In this document: positions 27,496-30,567 of the stretch, piece by piece
How positions within the stretch are numbered: position 1 is the stretch's first letter
Layout of the letters: every line of letters begins with the position of its first letter
Position numbers and translations under genes: made by a program
Notes under the pieces: model-generated
Seen by the model: the letters and a program-made list of their open reading frames with translations, nothing else
Told to the model about the DNA's origin: nothing
Database searches by the model: none
Source of the DNA: a virus
DNA length: 64,000 nucleotides
IMG/VR virus record: IMGVR_UViG_3300008259_003680
Location: 1-64,000 of that record
Strand: one strand, 5' to 3'

Positions 27496-27651
27496 TTATT
27501 GTTTTTCCAAATCTTTGATTAATTTTTCAACAAAATACTTTCTCTCATATACTGGCATATTGAGTAAATCTGAATAGGTAAAGTTGGCTATTTTAACCAA
27601 ATAATAAATTTCGTCTAATTGACTTGTCTTATAGTTAGAAGAAAGGCCGAA
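27496..27651 (-). CDS. Tail assembly chaperone extension reached by probable +1 frameshift, 51 aa
   Basis: This short frame has no useful start codon of its own but is open in the +1 frame from within the last codons of the gp26-like gene. It reads FFGLSSNYKT, then LDEIYYLVKI, then LLNMPVYERKYF. The pattern FFGL...L.EI..L......F...D...MPV..R.F matches the second half of tail chaperones encoded just before tape measure genes in many tailed phages. The overlap contains TTT TTT CGG. A +1 slip moves a phenylalanine tRNA from TTT to TTC, ahead of a CGG arginine codon that I expect to be rare in this AT-rich genome. The fused product would end gp26-like...VEFFGLSS. The frameshift itself is inferred. 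Confidence 0.65.
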   Translation of the reverse strand, partial: FGLSSNYKTSQLDEIYYLVKIANFTYSDLLNMPVYERKYFVEKLIKDLEKQ

Positions 27652-28387
27652 AAAATTCTACCCCAAAAGTGATGTTAACAATCACTTCTTCTCCAGACGG
27701 GGTCATAATTTTTCTTTCAAGATCTAGTTTAGGTTCGCATTCGTTCATAAAACTACGAATAAGTTTGGAGTCAGATATCGGTAATTGATTAACAAATTGT
27801 GCAATTTTTAATCTATCGTTGGTTCCGTTTAATTCTACAATTTGTTTTTCCAAACGTTTAGTAATTACCGGAGCCACCATGCCTTGTGGGTATTGGTCAG
27901 TTAATTTATCTATTTCCCTTTGTTCACCAATATTTAATAGTTTTAATTTTACATCCGTATTACTTTTAGGTAGTTTCAAACTAAAATAACCATTTTCATC
28001 TGGTGTATGTTTTGGTTGAAGGTAGTTAATTTCATCTAATAATAATGTCGCATCAAACTTTTTACCGGTTGCCGGATCTGTGATTGTAAAATTATATTCA
28101 GGTCCAAACGCGGTGTTTCTTAAAAAAATCAAAACGGCTTGTACGTCCGTATCAATCATTTCATCAATTAAAAATCCAGGTTCATATATTTTTTGTCTCA
28201 ATAATGAAAAAATTATTCCATCTCTACTAACGTTTGGTGCCATTAATATGTTTTCATCATTGGCGGTTAAATACCCAACCTTAACGGCTTCTTTTTTTGT
28301 TTTATAAAAAATACCCTTTGAAGGTAAACTTATAACGTCGTGAGGTAGCGAAAAATTATCTTGTCCATATTTTACTTCATCTTCCAT
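27635..28387 (-). CDS. gp26-like baseplate/tail assembly chaperone, 250 aa
   Basis: The protein resembles the T4 gp26 baseplate family: it starts with SLPSKGIFY, followed by a strand (VKVGYLTANDENIL), DTDVQAVLIFLR and a central AFGPEYNF segment. It ends EVIVNITFGVEFFRPFF. Its position immediately before the tape measure gene agrees with a role in tail assembly. The last codons overlap the +1-frame extension at 27496-27651, so two products are likely: the short form given here and a longer frameshifted form with a different C-terminus. This mirrors the lambda gpG/gpGT arrangement. Confidence 0.7.
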   Translation of the reverse strand: MEDEVKYGQDNFSLPHDVISLPSKGIFYKTKKEAVKVGYLTANDENILMAPNVSRDGIIFSLLRQKIYEPGFLIDEMIDTDVQAVLIFLRNTAFGPEYNFTITDPATGKKFDATLLLDEINYLQPKHTPDENGYFSLKLPKSNTDVKLKLLNIGEQREIDKLTDQYPQGMVAPVITKRLEKQIVELNGTNDRLKIAQFVNQLPISDSKLIRSFMNECEPKLDLERKIMTPSGEEVIVNITFGVEFFRPFF

Positions 28388-29058: not shown

Positions 29059-30567
29059 ATGGATTTAATTAATTTTTTTATAGAAAATAATAAAAACGGT
29101 ATCAAAACTAAAGAGTCCTTTTTAAAAAAAAATTATCCAGATATATATTTTGAAATTATTGATTACAGCAACGACGAATTAAACGACTTACCTTTCATAC
29201 AAAAAATCTGGCATTTTATTAATGAAGAACCAAACAAACCAGTATGTCCGACCTGTAATATTCAACTAAAATTTAAAAGATCTTTAAAAGAAGGTTATGG
29301 GGTATATTGTTCAAAAGTATGTTCCAACAAAAATGAAATTCAAAAAACAAAAATTAAAAACACCAATAATGAAAAATATGGAGGTAACGCTCCAATTTGT
29401 TCTGATGAGATTAAAAATAAAATAAAAAAAACTCATTTAGAAAAATACGGTGTAGACAATCTTTTTAAAGATAAAGATTATATTAAAACAAAAACAATAG
29501 AAAAACATAATGTAAATCATATCGCAAAACTTGATTCAACAAAAGAAAAAATAAAAAATACAAATCTTATAAAATATGGTGTGTCGTCCCCTCTGAAATT
29601 ACCAAACGTTAGACGTAAAAGAGTTAGAAAAAATACCAGTTTAAGTACTGTTGATTTTATAAAAAGAAAAATTGTTTTAATGGATAACCCGTTAAACGAA
29701 TTAAAATCATTAAAAGAAAAACAAATTTGTGAATTCTTAGGTGAATTAAATATTAAATACATTAAGGGTGACAGAACCTTACTTAAAGGTCAAGAGTTAG
29801 ATATTTTTATTCCAGATTATAGTTTGGCCATTGAATTTAATGGATTATTTTGGCATTCCGATAAATTTATAGAAAATAATTACCATTATAATAAAACTAA
29901 GGATTGTAATAAATTAAATATAAGGTTGGTACATATCTTTGAAGATGAGTGGACATATAACTCGTCTATCGTAAAAAGTAGACTTAAAACATTGTTGGGA
30001 TTAACTCAAACACGTATTTTTGCAAGAAAATGTGAAATAAAATACGTTGACACAAAAACAAAAACTCAATTTTTAATTGAAAATCACATACAAGGCCCCG
30101 TTGGTAGTAAGTTTAACTTGGGTCTTTATTATAATTCAGAATTGGTATCCATTATGACTTTTGGTAAAAAACGGCTAAACCTTGGATTCAAACAAAGTAA
30201 AAACGATGAATATGAGTTACTCCGGTTCTGTAATAAATTAAACCATATTGTTGTTGGTGGAGCTTCTAAACTACTCAAGAAATTTATTTCGGATCAATCA
30301 CCAAAAGAAATAATAAGCTACGCAGATAAAAGATGGAGTGATGGTAACCTATATAAAAAATTGGGGTTCTCCTTCGTTAAGGAAACCGTTCCTAATTATT
30401 ATTATATTGTTAGTAAGAAAAGGGAATCCAGATTTAAATATAGGAAAGATGTGTTGGTGAGTTTGGGTTTTGATAAAAATAAAAGTGAATCCGAAATTAT
30501 GGAAGAAAGGGGAATTAGAAAAATTTATGATTGTGGAAATTTATTATTTAAAATGAGTTTTATTTAA
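29059..30567 (+). CDS. Free-standing homing endonuclease, Vsr-like (EDxHD/PD-(D/E)XK) family
   Basis: A mobile endonuclease that cuts related phage genomes lacking the gene. The N-terminal third has a zinc-finger pattern C63-x2-C66 and C84-x3-C88, then helical repeats of the type KI(K)xTxxxKYGV (around 97-180) as in DNA-binding modules of homing enzymes. The nuclease core (about 225-300) has LDIFIPDYSLAIEFNGLFWHS (E259, H266) followed by HIFEDEW, the arrangement of very-short-patch-repair-like enzymes such as I-Bth0305I. It is the only plus-strand gene inside the minus-strand tail block, between the tube and HAD-like genes, and is very AT-rich. Both features indicate insertion. Confidence 0.82.
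   Translation: MDLINFFIENNKNGIKTKESFLKKNYPDIYFEIIDYSNDELNDLPFIQKIWHFINEEPNKPVCPTCNIQLKFKRSLKEGYGVYCSKVCSNKNEIQKTKIKNTNNEKYGGNAPICSDEIKNKIKKTHLEKYGVDNLFKDKDYIKTKTIEKHNVNHIAKLDSTKEKIKNTNLIKYGVSSPLKLPNVRRKRVRKNTSLSTVDFIKRKIVLMDNPLNELKSLKEKQICEFLGELNIKYIKGDRTLLKGQELDIFIPDYSLAIEFNGLFWHSDKFIENNYHYNKTKDCNKLNIRLVHIFEDEWTYNSSIVKSRLKTLLGLTQTRIFARKCEIKYVDTKTKTQFLIENHIQGPVGSKFNLGLYYNSELVSIMTFGKKRLNLGFKQSKNDEYELLRFCNKLNHIVVGGASKLLKKFISDQSPKEIISYADKRWSDGNLYKKLGFSFVKETVPNYYYIVSKKRESRFKYRKDVLVSLGFDKNKSESEIMEERGIRKIYDCGNLLFKMSFI

Follow-up and report, generated by a model that had tools for sequence, protein, structure and literature searches.

How does a T4-like phage reach an open frame that begins in +1 just before the stop of its gp26-like gene and that has no start codon of its own? 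Most known frameshifted tail chaperones slip backward, and the ratio between chaperone forms controls the assembly of the tail. The question was raised by one window of 64,000 nucleotides (the whole stretch of DNA analysed here, taken from a virus record of 66,537 bases), in which all features of the locus lie on the minus strand. Judging from the comparison of relatives described below, this T4-like phage, together with at least 150 distinct relatives, very probably makes a long chaperone by +1 fusion.

The chaperone locus and its neighbourhood

The gp26-like gene of the window (28387-27635) codes in the zero frame for a protein of 250 aa, for which matches to PF12322 and phrog_150 and an AlphaFold model point to a short tail assembly chaperone (TAC-N). 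Its 3′ end reads GTA GAA TTT TTT CGG CCT TTC TTC TAA and its protein ends in GVEFFRPFF, the zero-frame TAA (27637-27635) being four codons past the shift codon. The shift site TTT TTT C (27655-27649) includes the P-site TTT (27652-27650), which would re-pair with TTC in the +1 frame, and leads into the A-site CGG (27649-27647), a rare arginine codon. Read in +1 from the second TTT, the sequence continues as GGC CTT TCT TCT AAC... for 50 codons up to a TAA at 27498-27496; this extension of 50 codons plus stop (27648-27496), the putative gp51-like TAC-C half, has in the window the peptide FFGLSSNYKTSQLDEIYYLVKIANFTYSDLLNMPVYERKYFVEKLIKDLEKQ. Joining of both frames in +1 would give a predicted fused product (TAC-NC) of 296 aa (28387-27496). 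The initial annotation had described a gp26-like gene ending in FFRPFF, with a +1 frame that opens before its stop and lacks a start codon. The position and sequence of the gene proved correct, on the minus strand, and the open frame was confirmed over its 50 codons, down to 27496. There is no ATG before NMPVYER, and a TTG (in YYL), about 18 codons into the extension, is the sole near-cognate start.

Directly upstream of the gp26-like gene we find the tail tube protein, which is T4 gp19-like (28973-28485; phrog_4542, 1.6e-29), and directly downstream an ORF of 647 aa (27469-25526), a likely tape-measure protein by its position and length only, for which no family match reached the cut-off in Pfam or PHROGs. 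The chaperone gene sits between these two, as in G/GT-type pairs, and with this assignment of the 647-aa ORF the initial annotation was right to place it directly before the tape measure gene. On the other side of the tail tube gene, between it and an ORF of the minus strand, there is a 502-aa ORF on the plus strand (29059-30567) that matches DUF7487 (57 bits) and, just under the cut-off, the Mom family, and which may be a mobile gene, or one for DNA modification, that entered the tail cluster. A tail sheath protein of 1071 aa (34950-31735, minus strand) also belongs to the observations made in the window, with its sheath matches in Pfam and PHROGs confined to the C-terminal third.

Identity of the two protein halves

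The gp26-like ORF scored 25.8 bits against PF12322 (T4_baseplate; cut-off 24.5) and 2.2e-14 against the baseplate hub family phrog_150. With the fused protein, the match to phrog_150 rose from 54.5 to 63.5 bits, and its end moved from profile position 233 to position 280 of 282. The extension of cyanophages corresponds to phrog_634, the baseplate hub assembly catalyst (7e-23). The window's own extension matched only phrog_18291 and phrog_4845, families of unknown function in PHROGs, and could be aligned with that of phage S-H38 by tblastn at an E value of 0.01. These matches suggest a likeness of the extension to gp51, which partners gp26, and the two halves would then be the counterparts of the short and long chaperone forms of other phages.

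The AlphaFold model of the zero-frame half reached a pLDDT of 84.7. Its best match in the PDB was the HK97 tail assembly chaperone 2ob9, with values that fall within the range of chance matches both for Foldseek (E 0.52, prob 0.82) and for VIA (Z 6.2, rmsd 3.1, 79 residues), and an HK97 gp14-like chaperone fold of this modelled half is suggestive. Among predicted viral proteins (BFVD), the model matched the T4-like baseplate hub protein gp26, such as gp26 of Aeromonas phage 25 (8.7e-6), and a profile search of PDB sequences gave no match.

Conservation of the extension in the +1 frame

Viral contigs, when first scanned, yielded near-identical copies of the locus and one more distant relative, L007 (78% protein identity), with an identical shift site and an extension that carries many changes, mainly at third positions. 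From a profile scan with at least 525 matches, 80 loci of 51-100% identity were taken, and a further scan brought the collection to 134 loci in total, corresponding to 100 distinct sequences. The search found no relatives in genome contigs, and a single partial relative of the GXN1-like branch. The +1 frame stays open for 42-58 codons beyond the zero-frame stop in all of the first examined relatives (81/81), where the -1 frame closes sooner past the end of the gp26-like gene, and this openness of the +1 frame is far beyond chance. Differences between relatives in the extension, counted in the +1 frame, fall on 4958 third positions vs 2437 first and 1751 second ones, an excess of about twice the first or second positions that, as far as sequence comparison goes, is the mark of a translated +1 frame. 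The initial annotation had left the conservation of the two frames to an alignment of related phages, in which both of them, and the shift site, turned out to be kept.

The predicted shift site and its rare arginine codon

A TTT-CGN sequence occupies the shift site in 100 out of 100 distinct sequences. On a tree inferred from gp26 DNA further upstream, zero changes fell on the third base of the P-site TTT over these 100 sequences, and the third base of codon -4 (mostly Val) changed at least 35 times on the same tree. The third base of CGN is also variable (at least 29 changes), and no change from CGN to AGA or AGG was found. In the ORFs of 81 loci, arginine is encoded by AGA in about 75% of the cases (3105 of 4137 codons), and the CGG expected to be rare by the initial annotation accounts for 11 of the 575 Arg codons in the ORFs of the window, vs 398 AGA. 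All 82 shift sites of the Phe-Phe-Arg kind carry CGN (CGG 41, CGT 26, CGC 14, CGA 1); CGG and CGC fill 55 of these 82 sites, and 61 of 100 in the larger set, while outside the shift sites they appear 22 and 7 times in approximately 100,000 codons (around 0.7-1% of Arg codons). The residue encoded in the +1 frame (Gly for CGG, Val for CGT, Ala for CGC and Asp for CGA) may partly explain the presence of CGG, CGC and CGT over CGA. As a slip from UUU to the next frame needs a C after UUU, the complete absence of AGA and AGG at the site fits this requirement. No tRNA genes able to affect CGN decoding were found in the window. What characterizes the UUU_C class of +1 sites, a P-site UUU followed by C and a slow codon in the A site, is found here as TTT-CGN together with the enrichment in CGG and CGC. 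Altogether, the comparison of relatives argues for what had been put forward from the window alone, a TTT-to-TTC slip with a rare CGG as the next codon.

A conserved hairpin upstream of the shift site

Upstream of the shift site there is a GC-rich stem (S1) in which (G/A)CCCC pairs with GGGG(U/C), the arms in the window being ACCCC on the 5′ side (27703-27699) and GGGGT on the 3′ side (27664-27660). S1 closes at a distance of 4 nt from the E-site codon and 7 nt from the P-site codon, the place that a Shine-Dalgarno duplex would take up, with a spacing to the shift site that is constant in all 100 relatives; 96 of them contain it in their minimum-energy fold, and it is also the consensus fold. 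Synonymous constraint extends to the codons that form it: codon -5 reads GGG in 73 of 76 cases, though GGG accounts for about 10% of the codons for Gly, and nearly all relatives have GCC or ACC as codon -18. The pair between positions -18.3 and -5.3, the only one of S1 with both sides synonymously free, is C-G in 96 sequences, A-T in 2 (L053 and L091) and T-A in another 2 (the L064 lineage), with mismatches in 0 of 100. Each of these two positions changed exactly twice on the tree, in the same lineages, and in the L064 lineage the neighbouring C-G became G-C, both of its sides having undergone an amino-acid change. All five pairs of S1 are present in 97 of 100 sequences, against a mean of 44.5 and a maximum of 62 in 2000 synonymous-codon resamplings, a null that ignores relatedness. 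Three of the five pairs are largely fixed by the amino acids, the compensatory events come from two lineages only, and the -18.1/-4.2 pair gave few supported pairs in an independent-pairs test. A search of Rfam gave no match.

The loop carries a motif, TCTGGAGAA in the window (27697-27689) and TCAGGAGAA in most relatives, that is nearly invariant at the synonymous sites of codons -16 and -15 among the 100 relatives and as conserved as S1 itself; the third base of its GGA changed once on the tree. Two candidate roles for this motif were discarded. A pseudoknot helix (S2) of TCAGGAGAA (codons -16 to -14) with a downstream TTCTTCTGA shows no covariation and is broken in many sequences, and the AGGAG of the loop, taken as a Shine-Dalgarno site, has no conserved start after it and belongs to a phage without Shine-Dalgarno use. 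In this regard, none of the 47 ORFs of the window with at least 120 aa is preceded by a Shine-Dalgarno-like motif (0/47), and the sequence ahead of them is A/T-rich, as it is in Bacteroidota phages. The absence of these sites is as expected for a putative Bacteroidota-like host. The GGGG of the stem lies inside the helix and its end is 8 nt away from the P-site TTT, and a Shine-Dalgarno element at 3 nt, as in prfB, is absent.

Previous work with 70S ribosomes showed that an upstream hairpin placed by the E site stimulates +1 frameshifting and mimics an internal Shine-Dalgarno element (PMC6321510). In F. johnsoniae, Shine-Dalgarno sequences are seldom used and frameshifting at prfB is poor (PMC12421855). 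The position of S1 at the exit side, a phage that does not use Shine-Dalgarno sites and this hairpin precedent (PMC6321510) lead us to propose, with moderate confidence, that the stem is a stand-in stimulator. That it does act on the shift we regard as about evenly balanced, a judgement separate from the high probability of the +1 fusion. The strongest rival, which touches the stem and leaves the fusion aside, is that S1 and the synonymous constraint serve another role, for instance in mRNA stability or as a site for an RNA-protein contact. We see in it a serious, if minority, possibility: the loop motif is conserved equally with the stem, and S1 is limited to the clade of the window, a second +1 clade managing without an obvious equivalent. 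It does not agree, however, with the fixed spacing to the shift site (100/100), nor with a position from which hairpins stimulate +1 shifts on 70S ribosomes (PMC6321510).

The same extension in other T4-like phages

The second clade, around Flavobacterium phage immuto, has 50 distinct sites, and at every one of them the extension lies in +1 (TTTCTTTGG in 24, TTTTTTTGG in 22, TTTCTATGG in 3 and TTTCTTTAC in 1), and its shift would take place at TTT-CTT-TGG or T7-GG. Within this clade (L013, L015, L174-L253), TTT-CTT-TGG-C is near to the CUU-UGA-C of prfB, with a Trp codon that replaces the stop, and no obvious conserved stem lies upstream. The same extension occurs in the -1 frame in phages S-H38, S-MbCM6, S-SKS1, S-B68, HTVC008M, phiM7, Bhz51, ACP17, V45v66 and LR756511, mostly at T_TTT_TTY sites, and behind an ATG that overlaps the gp26 stop in Cygsa01, RHph_I1_18 and Vibrio phage D506; these -1 and ATG assignments were read off the sequence, with one genome per phage. 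These two arrangements are seen in cyanophages and proteobacterial T4-like phages. Phage T4 itself has genes 26 and 51 at separate places and on opposite strands. The occurrence of the extension in -1, in +1 or behind an ATG suggests that the route to the second half changed at least between these modes.

A deep split in the gp26 tree has all +1 phages to one side; the -1 phage LR756511 stands among them on a long branch, and a single +1 clade was not rejected (p-AU 0.348). At the end of the gp26-like gene of LR756511 (L016), the -1 extension begins at GGT TTT TTC amid +1 phages, a possible reversal of the shift direction. The putative gp51-like nature of the extension, the codon rarity kept across relatives, the conserved upstream hairpin and the -1 frame of other T4-like phages were all absent from the initial annotation.

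Other routes to the extension

The +1 frame could also be reached by a -2 slip on the run of T, with one extra Phe in the product (EFFFGLSS / ...VEFFFGLSSNYK). The T6 of the window lets the P-site tRNA re-pair two bases back, and there is a precedent in the tail genes of Mu (PMC5009743), but at TTC TTT CGC in L049, TTC TTT CGT in GXN1 and TTT CTA in LR756508 the tRNA would need mismatched re-pairing, while a clean +1 move from UUU to UUC is always possible at these three sites. A rare codon in the A site is moreover typical of +1 shifts, and we consider a -2 slip highly improbable. Transcriptional slippage, by which one T is lost from the run and a part of the mRNA codes the fusion in one frame, has an even slimmer chance: a T6 minus one T would give the same protein, but the longest T run is only 3 in L049, GXN1, LR756508 and the TTT CTT/CTA sites, so that this explanation is disfavoured, and it leaves the kept rare CGN codon and the upstream stem unexplained.

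Just as slim is the chance that the extension is a separate gene with internal or coupled initiation, since, despite the TAATG over the gp26 stop in Cygsa01, RHph_I1_18 and Vibrio D506 and an upstream +1-frame ATG in 41 of 100 relatives, the 100 distinct relatives share no conserved start codon for the extension, the conserved domain starts at the shift site itself, and the frozen TTT-CGN would be left unexplained. Before codon 12 of the extension, 59 of the 100 relatives have no ATG, and 13 of them, the window included, have neither ATG, GTG nor TTG; the first candidate of the window, its TTG at about codon 18, is a TTA in L007. A +1 slip at TTT-CGN stands as the preferred route to the second half.

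Comparison with known frameshifting systems

Vladimirov, Gautam and Davidson 2022 (Virology 566:9) reportedly assigned T4 genes 26 and 51 as separate chaperone halves, such halves being joined by frameshifting in several T4-like groups. This study is cited for the T4-like chaperone genes in PMC12846349, where the signals are poly-T -1 sites. Like the T4-like gp26/gp51 pair, the locus has a gp26-like and a putatively gp51-like half by the tail tube and the tape measure genes, but unlike at those poly-T -1 sites, the shift here would be +1, at a TTT-CGN that has a rare codon in the A site and a stem upstream. For their chaperones, tailed phages shift by -1, -2 or +1, among them -2 in Mu and likely +1 in HSTV-2 (PMC5009743), the latter being the only other +1 case of a tail chaperone found in the literature searched. 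As in the G/GT proteins of lambda, there would be a short form and a frameshift-extended one, from a gene located just before the tape measure (PMC5009743), whereas both the direction and the site differ from those of lambda (-1) and Mu (-2). The Listeria phages PSA, A118 and A500 also show a +1 shift in a tail gene (CCC-UGA), but theirs is the major tail protein, with a proline codon and a stop codon (PMC5009743).

The closest likeness in the site itself comes from influenza A virus, whose PA-X protein arises by a +1 slip at UUU_CGU established by mass spectrometry, for which a class of such sites was suggested (PMC3498833). Both at UCC_UUU_CGU of PA-X and in our phages, a P-site UUU would move to UUC before CGN, and GXN1 has TTC TTT CGT. 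Unlike the phage case, PA-X belongs to a eukaryotic host and an unrelated gene, and the likeness is one of mechanism, with no sequence kinship. In the bacterial prfB gene (RF2), the +1 shift at AGGGGG-NNN-CUU-UGA is stimulated by a Shine-Dalgarno duplex. The chaperone locus would share with prfB a +1 direction, a slow A-site codon and, if the candidate action of the stem holds, a duplex located in the exit channel for the mRNA, and differs from it in having a sense codon instead of a stop and an intramolecular hairpin instead of a duplex with 16S rRNA. S1 is also more distant, at 4 nt from the E-site and 7 nt from the P-site codon, than the 3-nt spacing of the prfB element.

With the -1, -2 and +1 tail chaperones reviewed before (PMC5009743), this kind of system is already known. 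As far as the literature found shows, what would be new is the +1 direction of the shift among T4-like phages, a UUU-CGN site at which a rare codon is conserved, and a candidate hairpin stimulator, although Vladimirov et al. 2022 or the HSTV-2 paper may already note a +1 site.

A proposed mechanism

From these frames, site, codon bias and conserved stem, we infer a +1 event, its efficiency and its role in assembly as follows. Most ribosomes would halt at the TAA and release the short gp26-like form of 250 aa. A minority of them would be caught with TTT in the P site and CGG in the A site, and during the slow decoding of CGN the P-site tRNA-Phe would slip from UUU to UUC, giving the fused junction ...VEFFGLSSNYK. 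S1 (ACCCC/GGGGU) may re-form behind the ribosome and push it forward, replacing the Shine-Dalgarno duplex of prfB. By analogy with G and GT of lambda, coating of the tape-measure protein would fall to the short form, and recruitment of the tail tube subunits to the long one.

Significance

A broader reading is that a conserved exit hairpin replaces the Shine-Dalgarno duplex in hosts that do not use such sequences, and that the shift of T4-like phages switched its polarity between -1 and +1 in evolution, a tentative proposal to which we give slightly less than an even chance. The group is very common in the environment, with more than 500 contigs matched in each of the two clades, and ordinary gene annotation misses the long chaperone that these phages would make. 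They may also offer a bacterial system for the study of hungry codons and of hairpins that re-form behind the ribosome.
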